64,000 bases of DNA. It comes from Tepidisphaeraceae bacterium. Lineage in GTDB: Bacteria > Planctomycetota > Phycisphaerae > Tepidisphaerales > Tepidisphaeraceae. Shown here piece by piece: positions 22,691 to 55,745 of the stretch. Positions within the stretch are counted from its first letter, which is position 1; each line of letters opens with the position of its first letter. The position numbers and the translations under genes were made by a program. Under the pieces are notes generated by a model. The model was not told the DNA's origin. It worked only from the letters and a program-made list of their open reading frames with translations, and did no database searches. Location: the NCBI GenBank assembly GCA_035998445.1, contig DASYHQ010000013.1:62001-126000 (forward strand). Direction: 5' to 3'.

Positions 22691-24109
22691 ATGCCTACCA
22701 CGATTGAAATGAACAGCAAGTTGACGGCCGGGGCTCACCTCGAGTGGTGGTTAGAGGCACGGTTCGGCATGAGCCTTCACTGGGGGCTGTACTCCATTCC
22801 CGGCCGCGGTGAGTGGATCCGTTCCGGCGAGCGACTGTCGGTGGAACAGTACCAACCCTACTTCGACGCATTCGCGCCCGACCCCGGCTGCTGTCGGGAG
22901 TGGGCTCGCCTCGCGCGCGAGGCTGGGGCGAAGTACGTCGTACTGACGGCCAAGCACCACGACGGCTTCTGCTTGTGGGACAGCAAGCTGACGTCCTACA
23001 CCTCCATGAACACGCCAGCCGGCCGGGATCTTATTCGCGAGTACGTCGATGCGCTTCGAGCCGTGGGGCTGCGCGTCGGCTTGTACTACTCGTTGGTCGA
23101 CTGGCATCATCCGGACTACGGCCTCGTCTATGGCGACCGACAACACCCATTGCGGCACGATTCCCAGCAGCGCGAGCTGGACGCGAAGCGCGACTGGTCA
23201 CACTACGTTCGCTACCTGCACGGGCAGGTCGAAGAGCTGATGACCCACTACGGCACGATCGACGTGCTGTTCTTCGACTTCAGCTACTGGGACTTCGCCG
23301 GCGAGCAGTGGGGGGCAGGCGACCTGATGCGCACGGTGCGCCGGCTACAGCCCAACATTGTCGTGAACGATCGGCTGGGTGGTGAAGAGATCAAGGCCGC
23401 GACGCCGGCGGCATGGGTGGGGGATTTCGACCACGCCGAGCAGAACATCCCACGCGAGCCCGTCGTGGATGCCCGTGGCTGTAGGGTTCCGTGGGAGGCA
23501 TGGCTCACGCTGACCAACAGCTGGTGTCACAGCGAAGGTCCTTCCGACTACAAGTCGGCTGCGACCGTGGTGCGGTCGCTCGTGAACTCCGTGAGCAAGG
23601 GTGGGAATATGTGTCTGAACGTCGCGCCGGACGCGAAGGGACACTTGGCGAAGGAAACCGTGGCGATCCTGCAGCAGGTCGGCAAGTGGATGCGAAGCAA
23701 CGGCGAGAGCATCTACGGTTGCGGACCAACCGCGCTGTCGAAGCCGGACTGGGGACGGTTCACGCTGTCGAACGACGGGCGGCACCTTTATGCCCACCTG
23801 CTCGAACAACAGATTGGGCACGTTTCGCTGGCGGGGCTGCGTGGCTGGGTTGAACGGCCGCTCGTGCTGGCGACGGGGAAGCCGGCATTGCTGGGTAACT
23901 ATTGGAATCCCGGCGTGCAGACGTTCGACTCGCCCGATGACGTGTTCCTGAATACCGCTGCCCCCATGCAGGCCACTTGGCCGCTGCCGGACGAGACCGA
24001 CACGGTCATCCGTTTTGACGTGGTGCGCGATCCGGAGCGCCGTCAGCAGATCGTTCAGGAGATGCAGGCCGAATTCGACCGTGCAATGCGGCGCGTGCCG
24101 TTCGAATGA
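22691..24109 (+). CDS. GH29 alpha-L-fucosidase
   Basis: The 472-aa protein begins with the GH29 signature region: WWLEARFGMSLHWGLYSIPG, then YVVLTAKHHDGFCLWDS. The nucleophile is probably D196 in IDVLFFDFSYWD, at the place of the usual WFDG Asp. A C-terminal beta-sandwich follows the barrel. It releases terminal alpha-L-fucose from glycans. No signal peptide is visible, so it likely acts in the cytosol. It is convergent with the GH95-like gene at 24158, and the two together point to a fucose-containing substrate. In 22508-22690 upstream no gene is seen. Confidence 0.9.
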   Translation: MPTTIEMNSKLTAGAHLEWWLEARFGMSLHWGLYSIPGRGEWIRSGERLSVEQYQPYFDAFAPDPGCCREWARLAREAGAKYVVLTAKHHDGFCLWDSKLTSYTSMNTPAGRDLIREYVDALRAVGLRVGLYYSLVDWHHPDYGLVYGDRQHPLRHDSQQRELDAKRDWSHYVRYLHGQVEELMTHYGTIDVLFFDFSYWDFAGEQWGAGDLMRTVRRLQPNIVVNDRLGGEEIKAATPAAWVGDFDHAEQNIPREPVVDARGCRVPWEAWLTLTNSWCHSEGPSDYKSAATVVRSLVNSVSKGGNMCLNVAPDAKGHLAKETVAILQQVGKWMRSNGESIYGCGPTALSKPDWGRFTLSNDGRHLYAHLLEQQIGHVSLAGLRGWVERPLVLATGKPALLGNYWNPGVQTFDSPDDVFLNTAAPMQATWPLPDETDTVIRFDVVRDPERRQQIVQEMQAEFDRAMRRVPFE

Positions 24110-24151
24110 ACGGGACAACGAGCGGCTACGTCGTCGCTCGAACGGCACGCG
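24092..24151. terminator. Inverted repeat shared by two convergent fucosidase genes
   Basis: A perfect 14-bp inverted repeat (24092-24105 with 24138-24151, core GCGTGCCGTTCGA) overlaps the last codons of the GH29 gene and ends seven bases before the GH95-type stop. It lacks T runs. It could act as a bidirectional stop or RNA stabiliser. Confidence 0.4.
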
Positions 24152-24157
24152 GTTGGA

Positions 24158-26404
24158 TCATTGTGCGCAGTCGATCACGATCGTCTGTCCGGCGGAAGTC
24201 GGGATGCGCGCCACACTTTGCTCGCTGCGCAACGGCTCGTCGCCGATTCGGCACTGGCCGAGACCGGCCGTCGCCAACACTAATTCTTGGCCTTGGACGC
24301 TCCTGATCCGTACCTGCGTGATGGCAGCCTCGCGCACGGTGACGCCGCAGAGGAACGCGCCTTCGGTCAGCAAGCCGTCAAACTCCAGTTCGCGCCAGCC
24401 CTTCGGCAACCCGGCCGGCAGGAGGTGGATGACTGGCTCGCCGGTGGACCAGCGGCATTGAACCAGCAGTTCGCAGACGGCGGTCACCAACGACATCGCC
24501 GCTTCCATCTGCATGATCTCGTAGTTCGTCGACGGATCGCGGCGGAAATTGCGCTGCCCGAACCCACCATCGCTGAACGCGCTGGTGCCGGCGAAGTCGC
24601 CGTTGTGCAACGTGCCGTAACCCTCGTTGCAGAACGCGTACGCCCACCACTTCAGCCACAGGATCGCCGGGGTCGCCAGCCCCATTCGGGCATAAATAAT
24701 GCTCGCCCATGGCACGCACCATCCGGTCCACTCACCAGCGCCAATCCACGTCCAGTGACCGATCGTATTTGCAACCGCGCGGTTGTGACGCTCGTCGAAT
24801 GGGTCGATAGTGCAGAACGGCCACAGGCCCGCGAGGTGCGCGTGGTGTCGATGGCTCTTGGTCAGGTCGTGCCCGTCCCACAGCGTGATGCGGCGTTGGT
24901 CGGCCCGGTGCGGGTCAGGCATGCTGGCGTAAGGCGGCAACCGATCGAGGACCGCTTGCCACCGCGGATCCAGGTCGCGTCCGAGCACGCGCGCTGCACG
25001 TTGCAGCAGCTGTGCGGTCATGTGCGCCGCGGCCATCTGGAAGCTCGAGTCACGACCCCACTGGCCGGCCATCGTGTGGTCGCGGTGATATTCGGGACTG
25101 ACGCTGACCGGCAACGTCAGCGAGCCGTCCGGCTTCTGTTCAAACATCACCCAAAAGCCTTCGAACGCGCCCACCATCAGCGGCCAGGCGATATCGCGCA
25201 GCACCTTCTCGTCCATCGTATGGCGATAGTGCAGCCACGCCATCTGCGCAATCCACGCCGTGCAGGCGTGGTCGATCGTGCCTGCCCAGAACGTCCCGAT
25301 GACGTTGCAACGGTCGTCAACGGCGTGCGGCAGCAGCATCGCGCCATCGCGCTCAAAGAAGCGCTCGCCATATTCGCGCAGTTTGGGAAACCACGATGTC
25401 ACCATCGACCAGAGTGGCCCCATGTGCTCGGGTCGGTTGCTCGGCAGGCACGCGCTGTACACGAGCTGCACATTGATGTTGAAGTGGTAGTCGTTGCTCC
25501 ACGGCGGGATCTGGTAATCCTCCATGAAGCAACCCTGCAGCGTCGCCGCCTCTGCGTGGGGCGGATTCAGACCAGCCTGTTTGTACAGCCCGAGGTCGAG
25601 GTAGCGCTGCAGTTCCACATCGGGAATCTGGATCTGCGGCACGGCCTTCCAATAACTTGACCACCACGCCTCGGCGTCGCGTCGCACGGCGGCGACGTCC
25701 GCTTCCTGCACGCGGGCCTGAACGATCGCCCGCGCATCGGCGCCGAGCGCGCTGCCCAGCAGTAACGACCCCTTCGTTCGCTTCCAAGCGACAGCCAGCG
25801 GTTCATCGTCCGGCAGGCATTGGATGAACCCGCCACTGTACTTCTCGTTCCATTTTTCAGGACGTGGCATGCCTCGATCCTCCAGCCGTTCTCGGGTGGT
25901 TTCGAAGGCTGGAGTGAGGGTGACGACCGCTCCATCGAGCAGCCCGGCCGTGTCGGACTTGAGCCACGCGATTTCGTCGGTCGGGTGCAGGCCGATGCGA
26001 AGGCGCTGAGTCTCATGCCCGCTTCGCAGTTCGAGCGATACCTCGGCCGTCGTCACGTCAAGGGACGCGCGCAGGGGTTTGAAGCCATTTGCAAACGTGA
26101 TCTCCAGTCGGCCACCGCCGTACTGGCATGGGCGGTCGGGCGACGCTTTTGGCTGATCACGACCGAACAGGCGATCGAGCCCTGCGGCGTCGTCCGTCTG
26201 CAGCAGCGACTTCACCTCTGCGAACGTCGCGCGGTCCAGTACCGGATTGGCTCCGCGATGGTCCCAGAACCCCGCGCGGGCGATCGTGATGCAGAGCGTG
26301 TCGGTCCCCCAGATCAGGAGACCCATTGTGCCGTTGCCAAGCGGAACTCCCGCATGTTGCTTCTGGATCGGGTAGTACCACTCGACTGATGATCGTGATT
26401 GCAT
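24158..26404 (-). CDS. GH95-type alpha-L-fucosidase-like (alpha/alpha)6 hydrolase
   Basis: A 748-aa protein with the GH95 plan: N-terminal beta-sandwich (EWYYPIQKQHAGVPLGNGTM), helical linker, (alpha/alpha)6 barrel (FMEDYQIPPWSNDYHFNINV, HAVDDRCNV) and C-terminal beta domain. SHRHHAHLAGLWPF corresponds to the HRH-LxGL(Y/W)P motif of the family. GH95 enzymes act on alpha-1,2-fucosyl or galactosyl links by inversion. It has no signal peptide, so it is probably cytosolic like the convergent GH29. AGGTGTAGG lies upstream of the ATG. A related uncharacterised GH family remains possible because the catalytic residues were not aligned. Confidence 0.8.
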   Translation of the reverse strand: MQSRSSVEWYYPIQKQHAGVPLGNGTMGLLIWGTDTLCITIARAGFWDHRGANPVLDRATFAEVKSLLQTDDAAGLDRLFGRDQPKASPDRPCQYGGGRLEITFANGFKPLRASLDVTTAEVSLELRSGHETQRLRIGLHPTDEIAWLKSDTAGLLDGAVVTLTPAFETTRERLEDRGMPRPEKWNEKYSGGFIQCLPDDEPLAVAWKRTKGSLLLGSALGADARAIVQARVQEADVAAVRRDAEAWWSSYWKAVPQIQIPDVELQRYLDLGLYKQAGLNPPHAEAATLQGCFMEDYQIPPWSNDYHFNINVQLVYSACLPSNRPEHMGPLWSMVTSWFPKLREYGERFFERDGAMLLPHAVDDRCNVIGTFWAGTIDHACTAWIAQMAWLHYRHTMDEKVLRDIAWPLMVGAFEGFWVMFEQKPDGSLTLPVSVSPEYHRDHTMAGQWGRDSSFQMAAAHMTAQLLQRAARVLGRDLDPRWQAVLDRLPPYASMPDPHRADQRRITLWDGHDLTKSHRHHAHLAGLWPFCTIDPFDERHNRAVANTIGHWTWIGAGEWTGWCVPWASIIYARMGLATPAILWLKWWAYAFCNEGYGTLHNGDFAGTSAFSDGGFGQRNFRRDPSTNYEIMQMEAAMSLVTAVCELLVQCRWSTGEPVIHLLPAGLPKGWRELEFDGLLTEGAFLCGVTVREAAITQVRIRSVQGQELVLATAGLGQCRIGDEPLRSEQSVARIPTSAGQTIVIDCAQ

Positions 26405-26550: not shown

Positions 26551-29500
26551 TTACCAGTTGTAGAACCGGTGCGGCTCATCGCCCAATTCGAAATCCTCGC
26601 GGTAGTCGGCGTGGTAGAGGCCGGGCGACTTCGGCTTCGGCGCTTCCTTGGGCAGGCTGAGCCGCATGTCAGCCTCGACGCCCGTAAAGCCACCGCCACC
26701 GAACCGGTCCCACACGCGCACCGCCAACACGTTCTGGCCTTGGCGAAGCAGGCTTGCGGGAACGGCGTACTCGCGCTTCACACTCCAGTTTGCTTCATCG
26801 GAGTCGCCGCGCCCACCGATGCGCGTACCGTTGAGGTAGACGTCGTCGTTGTCGTCGATCGCGCCCAGCGACATTCGCAGGTCACGACCCCGCAGCGATT
26901 CGGGCACCTCGAACGTGCGGCGGAACACGGCCTCGCCATCACGATTGGCCCATGTCTGGCCGAGCGTCTCCATGTCGCGCGGCATCTGGGCCTTCTGCCA
27001 ATCGGCATCGTTCACGTCGACACCCACAAGGGCTTTAGCCTCTGCGGAGATCGACGGGTCCACATGCCCCTTTTCGGGTGACGTGGCTGCGGGAAGCGAC
27101 TGCACCTGACGGGCGCGCCATTCGCCGGCGAGCGACAGCTCGGGCGACGATTCAGGTGGCAGCTCCGGACGCAGCGGGCGTGCGTCGGCCGTGAATGACG
27201 CGCCGAGGTTCGCCAGCAGCTGAGAGAGGGCCCCCGTCTGCCGCCAACGCGTCTTACGGAAGTACGTCTTCGTATCGGCATCGAAGCGATCGGGATCGAC
27301 CTGGCTGAAGACCGCGACGCCTTCGCCCACTTCCAGGCGTGCAATCTGCCCACCCGCGGTGGACTCGGCGCCAGGGCCAACCAGCCACGCGTCGGTGGCG
27401 GCACGCCAGCGGAGGTCCGCCGTCGTCAGACCGGCTGTTTCCGCCCAATCGGCCACTTCCGGGGCCTTCAGGTCGGCGGCGGTCTCCTGCACGAAGTTGA
27501 GTCCGAGCACCGGTTCTGCCGACACGCGCGGAAGGAACAGAGCCCGTCCACCGGCCGACAGGAACTTGCGCAGCGTGTCATTATCCGGCTTGGTGCTGCG
27601 CCCAACGATCAGAAGGTGGTCAGGGTTGGGCACGGCGTCAACGCGCGTCGCCTCGACGCCAACGGTGTTCAGGAACGCAGCATCTTCGTCGCTGCCCATC
27701 AACACCGTCGGCCGACGCGGCGACAGCGGCGCGGTCGCTGCGTGGTTGATCAGCTGGCGTGCCAACTTCATGGCGGCGGGGTCGGAGGTGTAGTCTTCCA
27801 AGTCAAGCTGGTTCCACGTGATCCGTCCACTGCCCAGGTTCAATTCCAGCAGCGGCGAGTAAGCCAGATCGAAGTCGGACACGAGCAGCGGACGCCAGCC
27901 TGCGCGGTGCGGCGTCTCGATCGGCGCCGTCGAGATGGCGCCACGGTTGCCCCAACGCCAGCCAGCGTACGGATAGATTGACTTGGACTTCAGCTGGTCC
28001 GGGCCCGTCAACTCGGCCGTGGACGGGTAGGGCTTAACCAGCGTGCTGGAACCACGCCAGTCGCGCAGGTCTTCGGTGTCCAGCCCCGCGAGTACGGGAT
28101 GGTCGCCGTCCACCGGGAACGCGCTGCGCTGTGACCGCCAGCTGACGCGCATCCCCAGTTGCTTGCGCATGAACTCCGGCGGTTGTGACATGATGATGAC
28201 GCGCCCGCCCGCCTTGGCGAACTGCTCGACGTCCGCAGTGAGGGCCGGTTCATCGGCCAACGCGCCGCGGCCAACGATCAGCAACTCACCCGATGCCTTG
28301 CGGTCCCACTCGGTAGCGGACACGCCCAGCTGTTCCAGCATTGCCTTCGATCGACCTTGAGGATCGACGACGAACGCCTTGACCTGTTCGGCCTGATTGC
28401 CCTCGCCGCGCTTCGCCATCGGCGCGAAGACGCGGAACGCGAACGTATCGCGCTGCTCCGCTTCGCCGATCGTCGCGGTCATCTCGATCGACCCGTCGGC
28501 CTTGTCCTGCTGCAACTGCGGGGTTGTGAACTCGAACGGAACGAACAGCGTCTGTCCCGGCGTAAGCGTGCCGGACGCGTCTGAGCCACCGACCTTGCTG
28601 CCGTTCACCGTAGCGATCCAGCTCACGCGGTACGGTTGCTCGCTGCGCGTGTCGTTCAGCAGTGCGACCTGCTTTTCAACCTTGTCGCCGGCCACGTAGT
28701 TGTGCGAGCGATCTGTGAAGGCATCGGCCGGACCGGCGATCCAGGCCAGCGTGGGTTGGTTGTTCTCCGCCAGCGCGTCGCCCGCGACCGTGCGTTTGCC
28801 GTCGATGACGGCATAGCCATCGTCCCATGGGATCATGCCACCAGTGATGCCCCACGTGCGCCACGTGCGCCACGTGTCGCGCAGGAACACCGCCTGCATG
28901 GCTTGGAAGGGGGGTGACGTCCGAATGAATTTATTGAAGTGCCAGCCGGCGTACGTTTGACCTTCCTTGAACTGGCGGACGAGTTCCTGCCGGTACTCGG
29001 GCGCTTCCAGTCGATAGGCATCGGGCCCGATGAACCCGGCGCTGTACTCGGTAATGAACGGTTCGCTTGCCGTCGTGTTGCCGTAGTTGTTACGGCCGCG
29101 CATCAGCGACGAGTAGAGGGGCGTGCCGAACTCGACGTACATCACCGGCATGTCGCCCTTGGCGGCGTAGACGCTCAGCCACTCGCTGCGTTCCTGGAGC
29201 GGCATGAGGTTCAGGTACAGGTTAGCGGTGAAGACGTCGCCGACCGCGCCACCGTTGTGGAAGAAGATGGGCCGGGTCGGGTCGATGGCCTTCAGCAGGG
29301 CGATCGCTTCTGCGCCCAGTGCGTCCGGTTGTTCCCGCTTCATCGTGGCCGCCCGCGCCTTGGCGGCGGCCTCGCGATTACCCACTGCTTCCGGCCCGAT
29401 GAACGCGCCCAGCGCGTTACCACTGCTGCCCCACATGAGGATCGACGGGTGGTTGCGGTACTTTCGCATCTCCCGCTCGGCCGCCGCCTGGAAGGCCGCC

Positions 29501-31311
29501 ATCTTCGCCGGCGAGTTCACGTTGCCGCCCATCCATCCGATGTTGGCCGTGATCGCGCTCACCGCGACACCCTGCTCATCGGCCACGTCGTACCACTTTG
29601 CCCAGGGCGCTGTCTTGCCGCGCTCGTAAGGATCCTCGGGCCACTGCTCGAAGAAGTTGAAGCCCATCGCCTTGTCGCGTTCCATAATGCTTGCGACGGC
29701 GTTGTTCGGGTTCGCGTCGGGGGCGGCGATCGACTGCCCCATGCTGGCCAGCGTCGGCCGCAGGCGCAGCGGCGTCCCGTTCAGCATGAAGTTCTTTCCC
29801 TCGATCCAGAATTCGCGGAATCCGAACCGCTGGCGCACCGCATCACTCACCGGCTCACCGGTGGACGTAAGGCGCAGCGTGTACAGGTTCGGCTGCTCCA
29901 GGTCCCACTTGCGCGCGTCGGCCCACGGCCAGGTCATCTTCACGCGCTGCACCGGCGTGGCTTGCAGGGGCGTCTCGGTCTTGAAGGTCTTCTCGACCTG
30001 TCCCTTCTCATCGACCAACTCGGCAGTCCAGTTGGCGGTGCCGGCGGTGGTGATACCGGTCAGCTCCACATCCACCGTCATCTCGTTGCGCCGCACGGAG
30101 GGCTGCACGAAGACGTCCGTCACGTGCGCGCCCTTCGGTCGGGCCACCAACCGCACGGGCCCGATTAGGCCACCCGAAGACAGCGTGGCCTTCACGGTGT
30201 AGTTCTGCCCCGGCGCGTTGCCCATCATTACCAGCACTTCGTCCTTGTCGGTCGTGGCGACAATGAACAACTGCAGGGTCACGCTTTTGCCGGGCGTAAG
30301 GGCGGGCGTCAGATCGACAGCGCCGGTGGGCCAGGTGATCTGACCGACCGACTTGCCGTCGACGAAGACGGTGGCATCGGTGCTGACGCGGTCCAGTTCC
30401 AGCACGATCGCGCGGCCGTCCCAGTCGGCCGGCACGTCGATCGTGCGCTCGTACCAGGCGCCGCCTAGGGTTTTCCCGTTATAGCCTTCCCAAGCTGGGC
30501 CGGTTCCACGGGCGACGATGTCCTCATTGCGCATCCACGAGCCGGGGACGGAGATCCAACCCCAGCCGGATTCCGGCGCGGCGCCACCCGTCGGCGCCGG
30601 CACGAATCGCCACAGGCCCGTCAGATCCATCTGTGACCGCAGCGAGGTGATTTCTTTAGCGCTCGGCTTAGCGGCCAGGCCCTGCTTCGCCTCAGGCAGC
30701 TTCGCGTCTGCCGTAGGCGCGGCCGCCTTCTGTTCGACTGGCTTGGCGGCCGATCCGGTGCCGGCGGCGATCGTCAGGTCGTCGAAGTCGACCGTGCCGG
30801 CGGCGCCGAGCATCGACGGGGACAGTCGAACGGCCACGGCGCCTTCCGGCACGTCGTTGGTCGTCTCCAACGTCACCCAATCAGAGTCCGCCTTCAGGTG
30901 CGGCACCTGCGGCCAGGTGCCGATCATCTCGTCCTGTTTGTCGACGAACGTGAATGCGACCCGCGCGTCGTTCCACCCCTGGTCGCCCATCTCCAGCTTA
31001 TTCGCGCGCATCTTCACGCGCACTGCGAGGCGCTTCCACGCCGGATCAAGCGGAACGGTCTGGAGCAACTGAGTGGCGGTCTTCTCATTGCCGTGGTCGA
31101 TGCGCAGGAAGGTATTGCCCCCTTCGGTCACGGTCTTGACGTGTTCGTTGCCGCCAGACCAGTCGGCCGGTCGACCGTCCTCGATGCGCTCGAAATTGGC
31201 GTTCTTCACGCGGGCCTCGGATGTCGCTGCGTACGTTGGCTGGGCCACAAGCAGAAGCGTGAAAGCGGCGGCGAGCGCGCGACCGATGCTCGGGTGTTTT
31301 GAATTCATCAT
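26551..31311 (-). CDS. Giant secreted GH2-like protein lacking the usual acid/base glutamate
   Basis: A 1586-aa protein: signal peptide (cut near residue 30, QPTYAA), a CBM4/11-like sandwich (about 35-185, VKNANFERIEDGRPADW, ending VDFDDLTI), a GH2 sugar-binding domain (about 225-400, VPGSWMRN, DRVSTDATVFVDGKS), an Ig-like domain, a TIM barrel (about 515-800), a glutamine-amidotransferase-like region (about 1000-1430) and a C-terminal galactose-binding domain (DDVYLNGTRIGG). The nucleophile E727 (MYVEFGT) is kept, but the NE acid/base site reads MWGSSGNALG with A633. It may bind rather than cleave, or use another acid. The 1450-aa protein at 51393 is its paralogue. The start at 31311 is chosen so that the signal peptide begins normally. 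Confidence 0.85.
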   Translation of the reverse strand: MMNSKHPSIGRALAAAFTLLLVAQPTYAATSEARVKNANFERIEDGRPADWSGGNEHVKTVTEGGNTFLRIDHGNEKTATQLLQTVPLDPAWKRLAVRVKMRANKLEMGDQGWNDARVAFTFVDKQDEMIGTWPQVPHLKADSDWVTLETTNDVPEGAVAVRLSPSMLGAAGTVDFDDLTIAAGTGSAAKPVEQKAAAPTADAKLPEAKQGLAAKPSAKEITSLRSQMDLTGLWRFVPAPTGGAAPESGWGWISVPGSWMRNEDIVARGTGPAWEGYNGKTLGGAWYERTIDVPADWDGRAIVLELDRVSTDATVFVDGKSVGQITWPTGAVDLTPALTPGKSVTLQLFIVATTDKDEVLVMMGNAPGQNYTVKATLSSGGLIGPVRLVARPKGAHVTDVFVQPSVRRNEMTVDVELTGITTAGTANWTAELVDEKGQVEKTFKTETPLQATPVQRVKMTWPWADARKWDLEQPNLYTLRLTSTGEPVSDAVRQRFGFREFWIEGKNFMLNGTPLRLRPTLASMGQSIAAPDANPNNAVASIMERDKAMGFNFFEQWPEDPYERGKTAPWAKWYDVADEQGVAVSAITANIGWMGGNVNSPAKMAAFQAAAEREMRKYRNHPSILMWGSSGNALGAFIGPEAVGNREAAAKARAATMKREQPDALGAEAIALLKAIDPTRPIFFHNGGAVGDVFTANLYLNLMPLQERSEWLSVYAAKGDMPVMYVEFGTPLYSSLMRGRNNYGNTTASEPFITEYSAGFIGPDAYRLEAPEYRQELVRQFKEGQTYAGWHFNKFIRTSPPFQAMQAVFLRDTWRTWRTWGITGGMIPWDDGYAVIDGKRTVAGDALAENNQPTLAWIAGPADAFTDRSHNYVAGDKVEKQVALLNDTRSEQPYRVSWIATVNGSKVGGSDASGTLTPGQTLFVPFEFTTPQLQQDKADGSIEMTATIGEAEQRDTFAFRVFAPMAKRGEGNQAEQVKAFVVDPQGRSKAMLEQLGVSATEWDRKASGELLIVGRGALADEPALTADVEQFAKAGGRVIIMSQPPEFMRKQLGMRVSWRSQRSAFPVDGDHPVLAGLDTEDLRDWRGSSTLVKPYPSTAELTGPDQLKSKSIYPYAGWRWGNRGAISTAPIETPHRAGWRPLLVSDFDLAYSPLLELNLGSGRITWNQLDLEDYTSDPAAMKLARQLINHAATAPLSPRRPTVLMGSDEDAAFLNTVGVEATRVDAVPNPDHLLIVGRSTKPDNDTLRKFLSAGGRALFLPRVSAEPVLGLNFVQETAADLKAPEVADWAETAGLTTADLRWRAATDAWLVGPGAESTAGGQIARLEVGEGVAVFSQVDPDRFDADTKTYFRKTRWRQTGALSQLLANLGASFTADARPLRPELPPESSPELSLAGEWRARQVQSLPAATSPEKGHVDPSISAEAKALVGVDVNDADWQKAQMPRDMETLGQTWANRDGEAVFRRTFEVPESLRGRDLRMSLGAIDDNDDVYLNGTRIGGRGDSDEANWSVKREYAVPASLLRQGQNVLAVRVWDRFGGGGFTGVEADMRLSLPKEAPKPKSPGLYHADYREDFELGDEPHRFYNW

Positions 31312-31522: not shown

Positions 31523-32401
31523 TTAGTCCTTAACGTACGTCCAGCGACCCGAGGTAGGGCCCTTCATCCTGTTGATGTAGTCAGGGCTGCCCTTGATGAC
31601 GCCAGCAGACTCGTAGGGCGTCATCGCCTCCACGTGCCCATCGGCAATCAGGTAGTTGAAACGTCCGCCGGGGTGAAGCGCGTACGAGATGGCGCCGACC
31701 GGGGAATTGCTCGGAAGGTTTGTATTCTCCCAAGGCCCCTTAACCTGTTGGGCCGGCGCATCTTTCGCAGAGCCACCCGTCGTGCCCATTGGGCTGTTGG
31801 GAAGCGAATCGTTGATCACTGAACCATCCGACCACTCCATCAGCATGATGGTGTCGTTCGCAATGGACGAATATTGCTTTCTCGAGGCGGGCTTGCCGTA
31901 AAAATCTACCGTTGTAGGACCGGCAGATATCGTCGATATGCCCAGAGAACCCAGCCCGAACGAGTTCCAATTACGGTTGCGGATCGGCTTGTACGTGATG
32001 TTCCGCATGGGCGTGCTATTGTCCGACGGGCACTGAAGAATTGGCGGGCAGTACGTTTGGGCGGTATTGGAATAGTCGCCGTCCTTGACGGCGTCAGGCA
32101 TGCGACCACCGGTCAAGTACTTGTCCATCCAGTCGGTCCAAGTCCAGTTTCGACCCGGCGCAAGCTGATAGCCGCCCGGTGGCAGAATCCCGCTGTTCTC
32201 GTTCGCGTACATCCGGAACATCAGGCCGATCTGCCGCATGTTGCTGGCGCACGCGACCGTGTTGGCAGCCTGCCTCGCCTTATTCAGCGACGGAAGCAGG
32301 ATGCTGATCAGCAGGGCGATGATGCCGATGACAACGAGTAACTCGACCAGCGTGAAGCCCAAGGGACAGGACCGACGGGACGATTTGCGGTTGCGCGACA
32401 T
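31523..32401 (-). CDS. Type II pseudopilin, planctomycete H-x9-DG type
   Basis: The 292-aa protein has a basic leader, the cleavage site and helix ([20 protein letters not shown]), the [21 protein letters not shown] continuation and a C-terminal DGH motif (FNYLIADGHVEAMTP). AAGGAG five bases before the ATG supports the start. It is directly upstream of the giant GH2-like gene on the same strand, with a stem-loop in the 211-nt gap, exactly the order found again at 50434-55745. A copy of the 41-nt motif lies 135 nt upstream, pointing at this gene. Confidence 0.9.
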   Translation of the reverse strand: MSRNRKSSRRSCPLGFTLVELLVVIGIIALLISILLPSLNKARQAANTVACASNMRQIGLMFRMYANENSGILPPGGYQLAPGRNWTWTDWMDKYLTGGRMPDAVKDGDYSNTAQTYCPPILQCPSDNSTPMRNITYKPIRNRNWNSFGLGSLGISTISAGPTTVDFYGKPASRKQYSSIANDTIMLMEWSDGSVINDSLPNSPMGTTGGSAKDAPAQQVKGPWENTNLPSNSPVGAISYALHPGGRFNYLIADGHVEAMTPYESAGVIKGSPDYINRMKGPTSGRWTYVKD

Positions 32402-32576: not shown

Positions 32577-32902
32577 GCCTCCTTGCAATCTGAATTAGTT
32601 GAGGCAGATTGTGCGTAACTCTCGGTAGAACAGATGCACTCGGCCTTTCGTTCTCGATCGATTAGCGGGATTGGGATGCTCTGCGGGTAACCCCTTAGCC
32701 AAAAAGACGACGTCGGACGAGAGACGGAGGATCTACGAGTCGAGCGTGTCCCATCCGATCTGTCTTCTCGTCGTTCATTGAGTGTCTCTGGCGCAGCGGG
32801 AGCATTCCGGTGCGGGTCGCGCTCCGCTTCGGTCGCAAAAATTTTGGGCGGATCGCCGTACATGGATACACCCTGCTGGGGACATTGTGAGGTTGAGTGC
32901 AG

Positions 32903-34771
32903 ATGACAACTGATACGAACACGCCCGACGCCACCTACGCCGCGCTACAGGCACGGCTGTGCCAGGGGTGGAACACGTGGGACGTGCGCAGCCTGCTCAG
33001 TCACGTGCTGTTGCCGCACGCGCTGGCGGTGCGGATCGGCATCAAGGAGTACGCGTCCGGCCGTTACCTGGGTGAGGCGCTTGTGGGGCGGCACGGCGAG
33101 CAGGTGGAAGCGGTACGGCCTGGCGTGCGCAGCTACGACGGCGCGTACACCGAACTCGAGATCACCTGGGCGAACGTGCGGCTTCGCGTCGAGTCGACCG
33201 CTGACGACAGCGGGCTTCTCCTGCTCGTGACGCCCCTGGACCGCCAGTCGGTCGACCGTTCGCTACGCCTGCCCGTGCTGGTCGTTGGTGGCGCCTTCCT
33301 GTGGAACAGCGACGGTGTCGTGCGCCACGATGGACTGGATCTGCTCGCGACGCCGCCGGGCGAATCAGCCGTGCGCATAGCGTGCAGCGGCCAACGGAGC
33401 GACGACCGCAACGTGCCGGCGACGGGGCCGTACGTCGCGGTGACGATCGAGGATCAACCGATCGTCATCACCGCCGGCAAACCATATGACGCGCCAGCCG
33501 CGCGAAAGTTGCTGGATGCGCGGCGCGAATCGCTGCATGCGAGCTTTGCCGCTCAAGGCGAACGGGACGGGGAAATTGCCGGGGCGGTACAGTCGGCTTT
33601 GGCGTGGAACACGATTCACGATCCGGATGGTCGCCGCGCGATCAGCCCGGTAAGCCGCGTGTGGAGCAGCCAGCAGGGTGGGTGGGTGCTGTTCTGCTGG
33701 GACACTTATTTTGCTGCCATCTTGGCCAGTGCGACGGGAAACGTGGACCTCGCGTACGCCAACGTCGTCGAGATCACGCGCCACGCGACAGAAGCGGGGT
33801 TCGTTCCGAATACTACGAACGCGCATGGCTTTGCGACGCGCGACCGCAGCCAACCGCCCGTCGGTGGAACGGTGCTGCTGGAACTGTTCCGCCGTCACGG
33901 CGACGCGTGGGTTGTGCGGTTGCTGCTCGATCGCTTGCTGAAATGGAACCGCTGGTGGCACGAGGCGCGGGCCGCTGGCGAGGGCTGTCTGGCGTGGGGC
34001 AGCAACACGTATGCGCCCGTCGTCGGCAACGAGTGGGAGACGGCCAAGAACGGTGTCGGCGGGCGGTTTGGTGGCGCGCTGGAGAGCGGGATGGATAACA
34101 GCCCGACCTACGACGACGTGCCGTTCGATGCCGCCACCGGCACGCTCGCGCTGCAGGACGTTGGCCTGACCAGCCTGTACGTATCCGATTGCGACGCGCT
34201 GGCGGAACTGGCCACGGCCGTCGACCGCCACGAGGTGGCCGCGGAACTGCGCGGGCGGGCGCAGGTGTATCGTGCGGGTCTGGCTTCGCTGTGGTGCGAG
34301 GAATTGGGTCTGTTCGCGAACCGACGGTTGGACACGGGCGAGTTCAGCCATCGTTCGGCGCCGCCGAGCTTTTTCCCACTTTTAGTGCCGGGCGTGGCGA
34401 CTGCCAGCCAGATGCAGCGGATGTTGAAAGAGCACCTGCATGCGCCGACGCGATTCGGTGGTGAGTGGGTGATTCCCAGCTGCCCGCGCGACGATGCCGC
34501 CTACCCCGAGCAGCACTACTGGCGCGGACGCATCTGGGGGCCGCACAACTACCTGGTTTGGCTCGGTTTACGCCGAAGCGGCCTGGATGATGCCGCTGCC
34601 GACCTGGCGCATCGGTCGGCGGCGCTGTTGCTGCGCGAGTGGCGGTCACATCGGCATGTACACGAAAACTACCATGGGGACAGTGGCGACGGCTGCGGTT
34701 ATCGCTGGAGCGATTCGTTCTATCACTGGGGTGGGTTGCTCGGTATTCCGTCCATTTTGACGCCGAAATAG
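32903..34771 (+). CDS. GH63-like glycoside hydrolase
   Basis: A 622-aa (alpha/alpha)6 enzyme of the GH63/GH37 type. The general acid is probably D267 in LFCWDTYFAA and the base E588 in HENYHGDSGDG; YWRGRIWGPHNYLVW and YRWSDSFYHWGGLLG are characteristic barrel motifs. Bacterial GH63 enzymes are inverting alpha-glucosidases or mannosylglycerate hydrolases; which applies here is not clear. There is no signal peptide, so it is likely cytosolic. The ATG at 32903 has GAGG ten bases upstream; a GTG at 32897 is an alternative. It is divergent from the pseudopilin/GH2 pair and may share its regulation. Confidence 0.82.
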   Translation: MTTDTNTPDATYAALQARLCQGWNTWDVRSLLSHVLLPHALAVRIGIKEYASGRYLGEALVGRHGEQVEAVRPGVRSYDGAYTELEITWANVRLRVESTADDSGLLLLVTPLDRQSVDRSLRLPVLVVGGAFLWNSDGVVRHDGLDLLATPPGESAVRIACSGQRSDDRNVPATGPYVAVTIEDQPIVITAGKPYDAPAARKLLDARRESLHASFAAQGERDGEIAGAVQSALAWNTIHDPDGRRAISPVSRVWSSQQGGWVLFCWDTYFAAILASATGNVDLAYANVVEITRHATEAGFVPNTTNAHGFATRDRSQPPVGGTVLLELFRRHGDAWVVRLLLDRLLKWNRWWHEARAAGEGCLAWGSNTYAPVVGNEWETAKNGVGGRFGGALESGMDNSPTYDDVPFDAATGTLALQDVGLTSLYVSDCDALAELATAVDRHEVAAELRGRAQVYRAGLASLWCEELGLFANRRLDTGEFSHRSAPPSFFPLLVPGVATASQMQRMLKEHLHAPTRFGGEWVIPSCPRDDAAYPEQHYWRGRIWGPHNYLVWLGLRRSGLDDAAADLAHRSAALLLREWRSHRHVHENYHGDSGDGCGYRWSDSFYHWGGLLGIPSILTPK

Positions 34772-34864
34772 GCGCGCAATTATCAGGCAAATCTCGGCTG
34801 ATTTAGGCAGTTTCAGGCTATTTAGGTGTATACGCAGCGAACGAAAATTCCTTATCGCGGTCGC

Positions 34865-35701
34865 TCATCCGTAGACGCGCTGGCTCGCCCGATATCGCTC
34901 CGGCGCGGTGCCGATCGTGCGTCGGAACGCGCGGCTGAACGAGAAGGGATCCGGAACGCCGACCCGTCTCGCGATCTCCTTGACCGGCAGCGTCGTCGTA
35001 GCCAGCAGCACGCTCGCCGCCTCGCACCGAAGGCGCGCCAGGTACTTAGCCGGCGCCAGCCCGGTGCGGGCGCGGATCTGCTGACGCACCGACGAGTAGC
35101 TGATGTCGTGCCGGCGCGCCAGCGCCTGGAAGTCCAGCGGCTCCTGCAGGCGCTGCCGGCACGTCGCGAGGATGGCCTCGATCGGGTCGCTCGGCGAGGG
35201 CGCGCCCGCGGCGGCGGCGTGGAGGTCGACCAGCAGCTGCTGGCCCACCAGGCAGGCGCGGTCGACGTCACCCATCGCGTCGCGCTGGTAGAGGCGGGCG
35301 GCCTCCTGGAACAGCGCGACCGCGAACGTCACCTCTGGCAGCCGGAGCGGAATGCCACCGGTGGGGATCAGCCCGGACTCCACGAGCCGAGCTGCATTGG
35401 GGCCATCGAAGCCGATGTAGTGCTCCTCCCAATCGTCGTCCGGGCCGTAGTCGAACACCGGTCCCGGGTACACGCCGATCACCATGCCCGGCGACACCAC
35501 GGTACAGGGCCCGTTGCCGGCGCGGTACGTGCCCTTGCCGCGCACGATCAGCGCGATGGCCGGGAAGTTGAATCGGGCCTTCACGTGCGTGCGCTTCCGT
35601 CGGAAGTACCCGATGCTCGCCAGGTACAGGTCGCGGCGGATCACGCCGGGTGGGCAGGGTTGACCGGTGAACGCGGGGGGCAAGTCGGGGGTCGTTGTCA
35701 T
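34865..35701 (-). CDS. AraC-family regulator with cupin-like sensor
   Basis: A 278-aa protein with an N-terminal cupin-like ligand domain (HVKARFNFPAIALIVRGKG, VVSPGMVIGVYPG) and a C-terminal AraC double helix-turn-helix (ISYSSVRQQIRARTG, ARRVGVPDPFSFSRAFRRT). This is the classic RhaS/AraC design, unlike the XylR-type regulators elsewhere in the window. The ATG at 35701 is used; a GTG at 35734 would add 11 residues. It is divergent from the dioxygenase, esterase and beta-helix operon at 35818-39694, which it probably controls. The short gap 34772-34864 shows nothing. Confidence 0.88.
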   Translation of the reverse strand: MTTTPDLPPAFTGQPCPPGVIRRDLYLASIGYFRRKRTHVKARFNFPAIALIVRGKGTYRAGNGPCTVVSPGMVIGVYPGPVFDYGPDDDWEEHYIGFDGPNAARLVESGLIPTGGIPLRLPEVTFAVALFQEAARLYQRDAMGDVDRACLVGQQLLVDLHAAAAGAPSPSDPIEAILATCRQRLQEPLDFQALARRHDISYSSVRQQIRARTGLAPAKYLARLRCEAASVLLATTTLPVKEIARRVGVPDPFSFSRAFRRTIGTAPERYRASQRVYG

Positions 35702-35817
35702 TTCTGTTGGTTGTATGGCAAGCCTGCTATTCACCCGCAGTCGGCCGAGGTCATAAGGTATTCCCCGGATGACGATTGTCCATCGTCACGACTTCACCCC
35801 CACCGGAGAGTAATACC

Positions 35818-36543
35818 ATGAACGCGACCGCCCCTGACATCACCGAGACGCTCAGCCCCGACCAGACTGAACGGTTCGATCGCGACGGCTACATCGCGAT
35901 CCCGAAACTGCTCGACCCGACAACGCTTGAAACGTTGCGGGACTACTACGACCGCATCATCCGTTCTGAGATTAAGCTTCCCGGCGATCGGCAACTCGGC
36001 AGCGTGACGCGGCAGGTCATGCATCCGCGTAAGGACATTCCGTACTTTAACGACAACCCCGCCGTCAGCCGTGGATTGCGGCTTGCAAAGCAGCTGCTTC
36101 GCGCCGATCGGGTCGAGGTCTCCTTTGACATGCTGATCTACAAGCCGCCGATGCACCCGAAGGCGACGCCCTGGCACCAGGACTTCGCGTACAACAACAT
36201 GCCCTTCGCGCCCGAGGGGATGCCAATGGATGGCGGCGGCGTCCAGTTCTGGGTCGCGCTCGACGATGTCGACTTCGAAAATGGCTGCATGCATTTCCTG
36301 CCCGGGCACCACAAGCAGGCATTGCGGCTGCATTACGTTTACGCGGGCAAACCCACGGACGAAGGCCGCCTTCTCGCGACCGCGGCGTTCGGCGATCCGG
36401 ACCTGCCCAACGAGGGCATCGCGTGCCCACTGGCCGCCGGCGGCTGCACGATTCACGCGTATGGAACGCCGCACTATACGCCGCCAAACACGAGCCAAAG
36501 CCGCGGACGGCGCGCGTACATCTTCAACGTCCGTGCAATGTGA
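35818..36543 (+). CDS. Phytanoyl-CoA-dioxygenase-like Fe(II)/2-oxoglutarate oxygenase
   Basis: The 241-aa protein carries the iron site H120-x-D122 (TPWHQDFAYNN) and a distal His in HAYGTPHYTPPNTS, followed by Arg residues suitable for 2-oxoglutarate binding (SRGRRAY). Members of the PhyH family hydroxylate many small molecules; the substrate here is unknown. CCGGAGAGTAATACC before the ATG sets the start. It is the first gene of a three-gene operon with an SGNH esterase (25-nt gap) and a cytosolic beta-helix enzyme (24-nt gap), so it may modify a sugar or a sugar substituent. Confidence 0.87.
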   Translation: MNATAPDITETLSPDQTERFDRDGYIAIPKLLDPTTLETLRDYYDRIIRSEIKLPGDRQLGSVTRQVMHPRKDIPYFNDNPAVSRGLRLAKQLLRADRVEVSFDMLIYKPPMHPKATPWHQDFAYNNMPFAPEGMPMDGGGVQFWVALDDVDFENGCMHFLPGHHKQALRLHYVYAGKPTDEGRLLATAAFGDPDLPNEGIACPLAAGGCTIHAYGTPHYTPPNTSQSRGRRAYIFNVRAM

Positions 36544-36568
36544 AATTGCCGGATCGAACAGGGACCAG

Positions 36569-37591: not shown

Positions 37592-37615
37592 CACTACCTC
37601 GGACGAGCCGAAACA

Positions 37616-51392: not shown

Positions 51393-54300
51393 ATGATCTT
51401 GAAGGTGCTCAGCACGTGCATTGCGGTTTCCCTCGCAACGGCCTCGCTCACCTTGGCGGAGCCGGCGGCATCGCTGGTTGGCGATCAGCTCGATTGGGAC
51501 CGCGCGCCAATAGAGGTGCTGTCGCCCGTGCGTGACCAGATCGTCCTGAACGGCGTGTGGCAGTTCCAGCCCGCCGTTGGTGCGGCTGAGCGCGGCGCGG
51601 TGCCGACGGCGTGGGGGCAACTGCGGGTGCCGGGCAGCTGGAAGCCGGCCGGTGGGCTGCCGAAAGTCGAATCTCCCGGCGGCGGGGAAACGTGGGACAA
51701 TCTGGACCTGCTGAAGCTGGCCAAGGGGTGGTACCGACGTGAGATCGACATTCCGGCGACTTGGGATGGACGGGCGATCGAGCTCCTCCTCGACCGGGTC
51801 AGCACCGACGCCGACGTGTTTGTGAACGGCCAGCGCTGCGGGCAGATCAACTGGCCCCGCGGGTCCGTCCGGATCGACAACGCCGTGAAGGCGGGCGAGC
51901 GGGCGACGATCGAGGTGCTCGTGGCTGCGGCTTCGACCGTGAAGGAGGTCGAGGTCTTCATGGGCTTCGGACAGAGCCACATGGCCAAGTCGCAGTTGGC
52001 CACCTGTGGCCTGACCGGCGATGTGCTGCTCGTGTCGCGCCCGGCTGGGGCGCATATCGCTGACGTCGGCATCCGCACGTCCACCCGGCAACAACGCATC
52101 GATCTGGACGTCGACATCGCCGACGTGCAGGCAGACGGCCCGGTGACCGTGACGGTCGACATGCTCAACGGTCGCGGCGAAGTCGAGAAGCAGTTCACGC
52201 AAACCGTTGATGCCAAGGCTGGCGCGAACAGCACGATCACCATCGGCTGGCCGTGGGCCGACCCGCGCCTCTGGGACGTGGGCAAGCCCGAGCTGTACAC
52301 CGCCATGGTAAAGGTGAACGGCACCGGGCTGAACGACCAGCGGCCGCAGCGGTTCGGCTTCCGCGAGTTCTGGATCGATGGCCGAAAGTTCATGCTGAAC
52401 GGCAGCGAGATCCGCCTGCGGCCTATCAACGCGCTGGCGCCCGACTGGACGGGCATCGGCGACTCGCGCGAGGTCATCTCTCAGGTGTTGCGTTCGTACC
52501 GCGATGCCGGCTTCAACTTCGTCGAGATCTGGCCGGTCGACATTGCGGCCCGCGGGTCGCGCGACGTCTGCCAAACCTGGTGTGAACTGGCCGACGAGAT
52601 CGGCATTACGATTGGCTCGATCGCGCTCCCGATGAACCCGCTCTTCAGCCAGTGGGGCGAGCCTGGGGTAAAGGATGATTACATCGCCCGGATGGCCGCG
52701 TCGATGCGCCGGGTGCGCAACAGCCCGTCGCACGTGATGTGGTCGTTCACGCCGAACTCGTTCGGGCACGCCCAGGATCAGAACCCGGTCTTGATGGGCA
52801 AATCGCTGGCGCAGCCCATCTGGCACTCCGACTACTTCGACGCTGGCTGGCATCGCCGGATGGCGCTGGGCAAAGAGGGTGTGGAGATCGTTAAGTCGCT
52901 CGACCCCACACGGCCGGTACTGGTGCATCAGGGTGGGCCGGTGGGGGACGTGTACGCGCTGAACAACTATCTCTGTTGGGTTCCGCTTCAGGAGCGGATG
53001 GAGTGGCTGACGGAGTGGTCGCAGAACGGCGACATGCCGTACATGGCCGTCGAGTTCGGCGCGCCGCTTCACACGTCGTACATGCGCGGTCGGTGGGGCG
53101 GTGGATGGGGTCGCGGCGAAGGGGCCAGCCACAGCGAACCGCTCGTCAGCGAGTTCGCGGCGGCGTACCTGGGCCCACAGGCATACGCGCTGGAGACCCA
53201 GAGCTACCGAGATTCCATTCGTAGCAAGTTCGCGCCCGCAGACGCGAAGGAGGAAAAGGATTCGTCGCAGATGTACCGCTCGTTCTGGGGCGATCCCAAC
53301 ATCAACCATGGCCCCGTGACCAACCGCATCCAGTCGCTGTTCATCAAGGAGACATGGCGCAGCTGGCGCGCGCTGGGCGTCACCGGTGGGCTCGTTCCGT
53401 GGGATGATGCGCACGGGTTCGACCATTCGGGCGATGCGGGACAACGGCTGGTCGAAGTTGCCCCGCCCGCTCCCGGCCAACGTGGATCGTGGCCGCAGGC
53501 GGTCAAGGCGCGGTTCCTGAATCCCTATCAGCCGGCTGGCGCGAAGGTGCTCTCCAGTGGTGAGGCCTTGCTGAACAACAATCGCGACACGCTGGCCTAC
53601 ATCGCGGGCAAGCCCGAACGAGTGACGTCGCAGGACCACCACTTCACGGCCGGCGGCTCGTTCACGAAGCAAATCGTACTGATGAACGATCGCCGCGACC
53701 CAATCGAGGCCGCGTGGTCCGTCGTGGTGACGCTGGGCGACGACGAAGTTCTGCGGCGGACGGAGACGGCGTCGCTCGGCGTCGCCGAGACCCGGATGGT
53801 GCCGATCGAGATCAAGGCGCCGATGGTCACCGCCGCGACTGATGGCGCCATTGTCCTCACCGCAGAGGTGGGTGGCACCCGCCACGAGGATCGCTTTGCT
53901 TTCCGCGTTTATCCCACCCCGGCACCGGCCAGGCAGCGCGTTGCCGTCATCGATCCGCAAGGCAAGTCGGCGGCCATGCTGAAGCAACTTGGGTTCGACG
54001 TCCAGCACGTCGATACGCCTGGAGACGCGACGACGCTGATCATCGGCAGCCATGCGACAAAGGACGATCCGAAGGTGGTCTCGAAGCTGCAGGGCTGGGT
54101 AGAGCAGGGAGGCGCGCTCCTGCTGATGAGCCAGCACCCGGACTTCTTCACCGATGTGATGGGGCTGCGGGTTCATCCGCTGATCGAACGACGCGCATTT
54201 CCGGTCACCACTGACCACCCGATCACCCGTGGTTTGGACGCCGACGACTTGCGCGACTGGGTAGGCGAAAGCCGCGTGGTCGATCCGTATCCGAACTACT

Positions 54301-55745
54301 TGGACAAGACGATCCGCGTTACCAACTACGTTGGCTTCCCCTGGCACGGCTGGCGCTGGGGCGGGTATGGCGGCGTGACGTCGGTTGCGATCGAGAAGCC
54401 GCACCAGTCGGGTTGGACGCCGCTCATCGAATGCGGGTTCGACCTGATGTACTCCCCATTATTGACGATGCAGCACGGCCGCGGCCGCGTGACGATCTGC
54501 ACGCTGGATCTGGAAGACCACGCCGCGTCCGATCCCGCAGCGGCGCTGCTGGCGCAGCGCATCGTTAGCCACAGTCTGAGTCACGTGCCAGCAGAAGAGA
54601 CGGCCGCATCGTACATCGGCGGTGAAACGTTGCACGACCGTCTGACGGAACTGGGCGTCGTGTTTGAACGCGTTTCCGGTACACCCCAGCAGCCCGGCCT
54701 GCTGCTGGTTGACCCCGCGTCGACTATCGCCCCCGACGCCCTTCGGCAATATGCCGAGCGGGGCGGGCGCGTGCTGGTGCTGGCATCGGCCGACGGCAAG
54801 TCTAGCCTGGCGACGTATGCGAACGATAAGAAGTTCGCAGGATCATTAGAAGTGCCGCAGTGGCCAGAGACGGTTGGCCTGAGCGGTTCCGATCTGCGCA
54901 CCCGTGTCGATGTGCCAGCCTGGAAAATTGCCGATCGCGCCGAGGTGGCTGCCAACGGGTTGCTGGCGCGCGAAACGGTCGGCACCGGCGTTATGGTCTC
55001 GTCTCAGGTCAACCCGTGGGCGTTGGACACCCAGAAGGAACCGTACCTGCGATATACCCGCTGGCGGCATACGCGGGCGCTGTCGCAACTGATCGCGAAT
55101 ATGGGCGGCCAGTTCCGCACGAACGCGCAGTTCTTCGCCGAACCGTCCGACGTGCCTGATGCTCTTGAACTGGCGGGATCTTGGCAGGCCAAACGCACGC
55201 TTGTCCTCGAGGCGGCCGCGTCGTTCGAAGCGGCGCACGCCGATCCTGGTCTCTCGCCAGAGGCGCAGTCGATCGTCTCCTCCACAAGCGCAGCGACCGA
55301 GGCCGGGTGGCAGGAACTAGCGTTGCCCGGCTTCTGGGACAACTGGGGCGACGGCTGGAACAAGACCGACGGCGAAGCCGTCTTCCGTCGAACGTTCGAC
55401 GTGCCCGCCGCGTGGGCGGGGATAGACCTAGAGCTCGACCTGGGTCCGATCGACGACTTCGACGACACCTATGTGAACGGCACACTCGTCGGCCGGACCG
55501 ATATCGCGACGCCGCGCTTCTACGAGCACGCGCGCCTCTATAACGTCCCCTCCGAGCTGACCCGTCCCGGGATGAACACGATCACGATCCGCACGTTCGA
55601 CCGCTACGGCGGCGTCGGCTTCGGCGCCAAGCCGCAGCAGTTCAAGCTGTCGCCGAAACGGGAACCGACGCGCGGCTGGTACCATCCCGACTTCCGAACC
55701 GACTTCGCCTACGGCGACGACCCGTACCGCTACTGCCGCTGGTAA
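51393..55745 (+). CDS. Giant secreted GH2-like protein lacking the usual acid/base glutamate
   Basis: A 1450-aa paralogue of the protein at 26551. It has a signal peptide (residues 1 to about 23), a GH2 sugar-binding domain (LRVPGSWKPAGG, DRVSTDADVFVNGQR), an Ig-like domain, a TIM barrel, a glutamine-amidotransferase-like region (about 845-1040) and a C-terminal galactose-binding domain (DDTYVNGTLVGRT). It lacks the N-terminal CBM of its paralogue. The nucleophile E554 (MAVEFGAP) is kept, but the NE site reads MWSFTPNSFG with S456. TAGGG lies upstream of the ATG. In 55746-56061 downstream two short opposing frames show no recognisable family. Confidence 0.85.
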   Translation: MILKVLSTCIAVSLATASLTLAEPAASLVGDQLDWDRAPIEVLSPVRDQIVLNGVWQFQPAVGAAERGAVPTAWGQLRVPGSWKPAGGLPKVESPGGGETWDNLDLLKLAKGWYRREIDIPATWDGRAIELLLDRVSTDADVFVNGQRCGQINWPRGSVRIDNAVKAGERATIEVLVAAASTVKEVEVFMGFGQSHMAKSQLATCGLTGDVLLVSRPAGAHIADVGIRTSTRQQRIDLDVDIADVQADGPVTVTVDMLNGRGEVEKQFTQTVDAKAGANSTITIGWPWADPRLWDVGKPELYTAMVKVNGTGLNDQRPQRFGFREFWIDGRKFMLNGSEIRLRPINALAPDWTGIGDSREVISQVLRSYRDAGFNFVEIWPVDIAARGSRDVCQTWCELADEIGITIGSIALPMNPLFSQWGEPGVKDDYIARMAASMRRVRNSPSHVMWSFTPNSFGHAQDQNPVLMGKSLAQPIWHSDYFDAGWHRRMALGKEGVEIVKSLDPTRPVLVHQGGPVGDVYALNNYLCWVPLQERMEWLTEWSQNGDMPYMAVEFGAPLHTSYMRGRWGGGWGRGEGASHSEPLVSEFAAAYLGPQAYALETQSYRDSIRSKFAPADAKEEKDSSQMYRSFWGDPNINHGPVTNRIQSLFIKETWRSWRALGVTGGLVPWDDAHGFDHSGDAGQRLVEVAPPAPGQRGSWPQAVKARFLNPYQPAGAKVLSSGEALLNNNRDTLAYIAGKPERVTSQDHHFTAGGSFTKQIVLMNDRRDPIEAAWSVVVTLGDDEVLRRTETASLGVAETRMVPIEIKAPMVTAATDGAIVLTAEVGGTRHEDRFAFRVYPTPAPARQRVAVIDPQGKSAAMLKQLGFDVQHVDTPGDATTLIIGSHATKDDPKVVSKLQGWVEQGGALLLMSQHPDFFTDVMGLRVHPLIERRAFPVTTDHPITRGLDADDLRDWVGESRVVDPYPNYLDKTIRVTNYVGFPWHGWRWGGYGGVTSVAIEKPHQSGWTPLIECGFDLMYSPLLTMQHGRGRVTICTLDLEDHAASDPAAALLAQRIVSHSLSHVPAEETAASYIGGETLHDRLTELGVVFERVSGTPQQPGLLLVDPASTIAPDALRQYAERGGRVLVLASADGKSSLATYANDKKFAGSLEVPQWPETVGLSGSDLRTRVDVPAWKIADRAEVAANGLLARETVGTGVMVSSQVNPWALDTQKEPYLRYTRWRHTRALSQLIANMGGQFRTNAQFFAEPSDVPDALELAGSWQAKRTLVLEAAASFEAAHADPGLSPEAQSIVSSTSAATEAGWQELALPGFWDNWGDGWNKTDGEAVFRRTFDVPAAWAGIDLELDLGPIDDFDDTYVNGTLVGRTDIATPRFYEHARLYNVPSELTRPGMNTITIRTFDRYGGVGFGAKPQQFKLSPKREPTRGWYHPDFRTDFAYGDDPYRYCRW

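Follow-up and report, generated by a model that had tools for sequence, protein, structure and literature searches.

A secreted GH2-fold protein family without the strand-4 acid/base glutamate and with a conserved candidate acid in loop 6

The window, by which we mean the whole stretch of 64,000 nucleotides analysed here, carries on its minus strand a gene for a large secreted protein, P0001, at the position where the first-pass annotation had placed a giant GH2-like protein (Table 1). Translation put the start ATG at 31311 and the stop codon at 26551-26553; an alternative TTG start at 31377 is likewise open. The core of P0001 has the domain order of GH2 (clan GH-A), and all three domains scored above the Pfam cut-off: sugar-binding (PF02837, residues 229-346), Ig-like (PF00703, 395-499) and TIM barrel (PF02836, Glyco_hydro_2_C, 572-732). 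Structure prediction, which had been proposed earlier, gave an AlphaFold model of this core (pLDDT 87.2, pTM 0.89) that matched GH2 structures, 6b6l being the best solved match (Z 25.0, rmsd 5.0 over 487). The N-terminal module had been called a CBM. It recurs in proteins of the same genome that have no GH2 match (contigs C7, C48 and C49); the Pfam scan returned no match for it, and carbohydrate binding is its probable function. Behind the core, the alpha/beta region is strongly conserved (YGWRWGN, IEKPH), and its earlier description as amidotransferase-like found a weak echo in DUF4350 matches, seen in 5 of 21 members. A PDB sequence search with this region gave one chance-like match, and the structure search listed no match inside it, a result that carries no information on its fold.

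Table 1. Positions of the genes, domains and residues discussed in the text, numbered along the window.
Feature	Position	Strand	Description and basis
P0001, whole gene	26551..31311	minus	Secreted GH2-fold protein, 1586 aa; translation, Pfam GH2 domains
P0001 signal peptide	31228..31311	minus	Sec-type, about residues 1-28 (MMNSKHPSIGRALAAAFTLLLVAQPTYA); predicted by eye from translation
P0001 N-terminal module	30742..31224	minus	About residues 30-190; probably carbohydrate-binding
P0001 GH2 core	28597..30678	minus	Residues 212-905; sugar-binding, Ig and TIM barrel domains; Pfam, AlphaFold model
E555	29647..29649	minus	End of strand 2; Arg in 65/66 outgroups
A633	29413..29415	minus	GH2 acid/base Glu site, after N632; alignments
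E707	29191..29193	minus	In PLQE of loop 6; candidate for the moved acid/base; Glu 67, Asp 1, Gln 1 (n=69)
E727	29131..29133	minus	Nucleophile on strand 7 (VEFGTP), 68/69; alignments, AlphaFold model
P0001 C-terminal alpha/beta module(s)	27187..28389	minus	About residues 975-1375; weakly DUF4350-like; borders approximate
P0001 C-terminal jelly roll	26632..27114	minus	About residues 1400-1560; like sialate O-acetylesterases (7kmm), E 6.4e-13; borders approximate
P0001 C-terminal tail	26554..26583	minus	GDEPHRFYNW-stop; divergent form of family tail DDPYR[YF]xRW
Second family member	51393..55745	plus	1450 aa; full-length
Second member, Ser456	52758-52760	plus	Acid/base site
Second member, E534	52992-52994	plus
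Second member, E554	53052-53054	plus	Nucleophile
Second member, tail	within 51393..55745	plus	GDDPYRYCRW-stop; consensus form
GH29 gene adjoining P0001	22691-24109		Alpha-L-fucosidase-like; neighbour scan
GH95-like gene adjoining P0001	24158-26404		Neighbour scan
Zn-dependent dehydrogenase genes	46313-48309	plus	Two, adjacent

P0001 and a second gene of the window belong to one family, delimited below, and the genes around them point to a substrate. Beyond the two glycosidase-like genes that adjoin P0001, the window holds GH141-like and other beta-helix proteins, a GDSL esterase, MGH1-like and GH42-like proteins, LacI regulators and two Zn dehydrogenases. The intervals 22691-26404 and 32897-42310, with their GH29, GH95, GH141-like, MGH1-like and GDSL genes, are probably a fucose-polysaccharide locus. 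Outside the window the neighbour scan covered 18 genes picked from 11 loci. Sulfatases adjoin two family members (L122 and L107); none was found among the scanned genes of the 64-kb window, and no fucose- or sulfatase-type link appeared among the genes scanned at the cyanobacterial loci. To judge from these neighbours, the likely substrate field is fucose-containing, perhaps sulfated, polysaccharide. The two Zn dehydrogenases have counterparts (62% and 61% identical) directly beside member L098, at 11258-13320 in a Phycisphaeraceae genome, and on that evidence the pair and the family member are a conserved gene group. Elsewhere in the window, the GH42-like protein (59821-63756, minus, 1311 aa) has a weak trimerisation-domain match, a 523-aa protein (57909-59480, plus) weakly matches nucleoside hydrolases, under the Pfam cut-off, and a 684-aa protein (42426-44480, minus) is made of repeated carboxypeptidase-regulatory-like domains. 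Pilin-like N-methylation (DUF1559 type) and PEP-CTERM proteins lie near the family genes (31523-32401, minus; 50434-51246, 16798-17820 and 48481-49272, plus). Scanning the window for Rfam families and tRNAs gave no matches.

In the barrel motif of P0001, NHPSILMWGSSGNALG, alanine 633 occupies the position of the GH2 acid/base Glu. Three alignments agreed on this assignment: one to Pfam Glyco_hydro_2_C, one through an HMM built from 33 relatives and aligned to the Thermotoga beta-galactosidase 6s6z, and a MAFFT alignment that included 66 outgroup GH2 proteins. They uphold the first-pass annotation in its reading of N632, of Ala at the acid/base site and of the nucleophile E727 94 residues later, which in the core model falls within strand 512-517 (residues 723-728 of P0001). 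The family search suggested at that time found relatives, and in their acid/base column Glu occurs in 0 of 69 non-redundant members, as against 65 of the 66 nearest outgroup GH2 proteins, the 66th reading N-E-W, displaced by one position. Ala itself is present in 31 of the 69; the others have Phe (16), Ser, Tyr or Arg (4 each), Gly (3), Val or Leu (2 each), and Asp, Trp or Thr (1 each). The missing acid/base Glu is a trait of the whole family, not a one-off. N632, the Asn that precedes the site at the end of strand 4, is retained in 67 members. The strand-2 Arg of GH2 has also gone from nearly the whole column, which reads Tyr in 35 members, Glu in 27, Ile in 3, Arg in 2, and Leu and a gap in 1 each. 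A sequencing or frame error at A633 was ruled out by the five family members of the same genome, all without Glu (motif endings N-A, N-S, N-F, N-V and N-V). Another Glu standing in place at the acid/base site, the observation that was to have spoken against the earlier reading, was ruled out as well, because none of the 69 members has one. Since the acid/base feature was looked for and found absent, we file the family as GH2-fold, or GH2-related, and not as a canonical GH2 enzyme.

Relatives were sought in 61 genomes, in 397 genomes of the class and in a wider set of species genomes. Among the 397, 34 had a match above 400 bits, two candidates being scored per genome, and 80 loci were kept from the species-genome search. 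Since the patterns that fetched the species-genome relatives leave out the acid/base site, these relatives were not selected for its loss. As the records are named, members occur in Planctomycetota, Verrucomicrobiota, Lentisphaerota, Cyanobacteriota (Microcoleus, Roseofilum), Candidatus Melainabacteria, Armatimonadota, Acidobacteriota, Bacteroidota and Candidatus Poribacteria. The five in the genome of P0001 are P0001 itself, the second gene in the window and three elsewhere (C13:38799-44006, C45 and C38); the last of these, L010, is split by a frame change and is either a pseudogene or an assembly error. Removal of near-copies reduced 162 scoring frames to 139, and exclusion of rows shorter than 480 aa (family) or 400 aa (outgroup) left the 69 family and 66 outgroup proteins. 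The family cut-off of 300 bits falls between the lowest counted member (361) and the highest outgroup protein (217). Trees were built on the sandwich domains and the first strands, with the motif columns excluded. In a quick tree of 113 rows (68 family, 45 outgroup) one branch divides family from outgroup with an SH-aLRT of 92; in a careful tree of 73 rows (39 of the 69 family and 34 of the 66 outgroup rows, long and near-identical ones excluded) this branch has a support of 100/99 and is present in 100% of 200 bootstrap trees. The acid/base Glu would thus have been lost once in the family, or the lineage never had it.

One relative, L045 (G018:C8; the same as L090), has neither nucleophile nor E707 nor C-terminal tail. 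Its changes are E727A, E707Q, N632D, Y699G, H685W and W829Q. Of 21 conserved barrel positions with a polar or aromatic residue, 12 are altered in it, and of 14 conserved Gly, Pro or Ala positions none, while the other family rows average 0.75 and 0.46 changes, respectively. Judged by its sequence this pattern is the mark of a true pseudoenzyme, in a single case. Since the decay is confined to L045, the missing acid/base residue of the other members would not itself be decay, and these other 68 look active. P0001 deviates in its tail and at three of the 21 polar or aromatic positions, and may represent the family less well than its relatives do. If the barrels of the family merely bound carbohydrate, as the binding-protein option of the first-pass annotation had it, then the absent acid/base residue and the several attached modules would be accounted for, and L045 shows that such decay happens in the family. 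However, the nucleophile, N632, H685, N697, Y699, Q706, E707 and W829 are conserved in nearly all the other members, across phyla, and the pattern of active-site loss seen in L045 is not found in them; we regard a purely binding barrel as improbable.

At a threshold of at least 90% of members, the conserved acids of the barrel are E707, D578, D677, E727 and E755 and, as a class, a loop-4 Asp column and column 710. D578 sits in a helix and D677 outside the strand ends. E755, conserved in 69 of 69, was set aside as the acid because the pseudoenzyme retains it, along with R818. The joint loss in L045 suggests, from this one case, that E707 goes with the active site and E755 with the fold. The E707 column is a gap in 61 of the 66 outgroup proteins. 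In the core model Q706 and E707 begin a short helix immediately after strand 6, and the PLQE motif directly follows strand 6 in both AlphaFold models (the P0001 core and a 1162-aa member), a position that would place E707 on the catalytic face. Against E707 stands the fact that the loop-4 Asp and the acid at 710 are almost equally conserved. The former (D-x-N-P, seven positions past N632 in most members) is acidic, Asp or Glu, in 65 of 69 members and has gone from L045, but P0001 has Phe in this column and a shorter loop; the latter is acidic in 65 of 69, but alternates between Glu and Asp. We consider it unlikely that an active enzyme uses one of these two, or a residue from the C-terminal module or from the tail, in place of E707. 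An active enzyme might also do without a protein acid, given a good leaving group or a carboxylate supplied externally or by the substrate. Plant myrosinases work in this way, and the residue at the acid/base site varies as freely as if no in-place substitute existed, while the nucleophile is kept in all members but one. Nevertheless, a family-specific Glu near the nucleophile in sequence is conserved, the two were lost jointly in L045, and we think an acid-free mechanism rather unlikely.

We propose that this single-origin family of secreted GH2-fold (clan GH-A) proteins remained enzymatic after one loss of its strand-4 acid/base Glu; its members would most likely be retaining beta-glycosidases. 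In GH2 fashion, E727 on strand 7 would attack the sugar. A Glu relocated to the loop that follows strand 6, E707, would reach the glycosidic oxygen from there and would donate and accept the proton, with assistance from the neighbouring acid at 710. Replacement of the strand-2 Arg by Glu or Tyr implies that the -1 subsite was rebuilt too. Our observations in this respect are that the Glu is absent, that the family has a single origin, that E727 and E707 are conserved but missing together from one natural pseudoenzyme, and that the model has a GH2 fold. That another acid is used, one of the options of the first-pass annotation, gains ground from the single origin, the retained nucleophile and the family-specific conserved Glu in loop 6. 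We know of no family member with known activity. That the members are active enzymes by one route or another seems to us likely; for an acid/base residue relocated to E707, its most likely place, we put the chances at about even. In sum, the family is probably a working enzyme of different build, not a dead one.

The chain of intact members ends precisely with an aromatic tail, D-D-P-Y-R-[YF]-x-R-W-stop. A stop codon lay inside the locus for 39 of the 69 family frames, of which 35 end in Trp and 31 in Arg-Trp; of the four exceptions, one is masked and the other three have the tail in a different frame. None of 55 complete outgroup frames ends in Trp. The DNA pattern D-[DN]-P-Y-R-[YF]-x-R-W-stop had 33 sites in 26 of the 397 genomes and none in the control, and all 33 lie at the ends of family genes; 27 were assigned by contig, strand and position beside family matches and six by HMM, two of the six on weak matches (E 1e-13 and 3e-10, in frames of 94 and 162 aa). 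This strict pattern misses the divergent tail of P0001. The tail sits at the stop codon irrespective of the module that precedes it. A general sorting signal was ruled out, since within the 397 genomes every site belonged to the family and the control had no match. In favour of an acid drawn from this end of the protein, the C-terminal module roughly equals the barrel in conservation, and conservation peaks in the last 12 columns of the protein (0.75, versus 0.38-0.63 in the preceding blocks). On the other side, the tail Asp is absent in L056 and L128, which retain E707, and this weakens it as the acid; moreover, AlphaFold on the 1162-aa member with 26 aligned sequences (overall pLDDT 86.3) left the tail unplaced (pLDDT <50), so that the model does not support docking within one chain. 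A more far-reaching reading is that in this lineage of clan GH-A the catalytic pair has shifted from strands 4 and 7 to loop 6 and strand 7, and that the exact C-terminus DDPYR[YF]xRW, with the free carboxylate of its Trp, would complete an active site, either that of its own subunit or that of an adjacent one, or else be read by a dedicated partner. It is drawn from a tail that is exclusive to the family within the 397 genomes, always at the stop codon and missing in the pseudoenzyme, and we offer it as a tentative and somewhat doubtful possibility.

On their GH2 domains alone such proteins are easily labelled beta-galactosidases. If the acid/base residue has truly moved, a family found in several phyla would break with the strand-4/strand-7 rule by which clan GH-A is defined. 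The family would also provide, with L045 as control, a clean test case for the question raised by GH2_19 and GH2_21, namely whether such proteins are active, follow a new mechanism or are dead copies. The tail is a second puzzle, separate from the missing acid/base Glu.

With the GH2 beta-galactosidases and beta-glucuronidases (6s6z, 6b6l, 5t98) the family shares the domain order, the fold, the strand-7 nucleophile Glu and the Asn before the acid/base site. It differs from them in lacking the acid/base Glu, in having Glu or Tyr for the strand-2 Arg, and in adding the loop-6 QE motif, the C-terminal module and the fixed tail. The chain 6hpd, which we take to be a GH2_21 structure, matches P0001 at 0.006. 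In PMC12243196, GH2 is split into 23 subfamilies with a similarity threshold of 1e-59. There, NE is still the commonest pair in GH2_19, some members of which have TV, NA or NQ; GH2_18 and GH2_19 have Thr in place of the loop-8 Trp; the GH2_22 beta-xylosidase has Asp for the strand-2 Arg and keeps NE; and GH2_21 has Trp or hydrophilic residues at the acid/base site, a conserved Glu, E402, being proposed instead. Acid/base loss in GH2 is already known in outline from GH2_19 and GH2_21 (PMC12243196), and the novelty is smaller than the first-pass annotation implied. P0001 might then simply be a member of one of these two subfamilies, which show the same kind of loss, and the GH2_19 structure 7xyr ranks among the structures that best match its core model (Z 23.2, rmsd 4.1 over 494). 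Yet the sequence match of P0001 to 7xyr is 1e-6, far from the threshold for GH2_19 (a rough comparison, with one member and differing database sizes), while the genome of P0001 also encodes a 612-aa protein that matches 7xyr at 6e-143 and keeps NE. Moreover, 7xyr has 591 aa and no C-terminal module, the pair reported as commonest in its subfamily is absent from all 69 family members, and the loop-8 Trp is kept in 63 of them, against the Thr reported for GH2_18 and GH2_19. We therefore hold simple membership in GH2_19 or GH2_21 to be very unlikely. GH2_22 resembles part of the family in its acid for the strand-2 Arg, but is described as retaining NE. In GH2_21, as described there, the ulvan-pathway beta-glucuronidase T2KN75 resembles the family in that its acid/base Glu is replaced and another Glu is proposed; from the numbering alone, E402 is expected before the acid/base site, whereas E707 lies 74 residues after it. 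The single origin, and a similarity to solved GH2 chains far under the published subfamily threshold, favour the new subfamily that had been suggested as an option, and on these grounds we would set the family apart within the GH2-fold group, if only tentatively from GH2_21.
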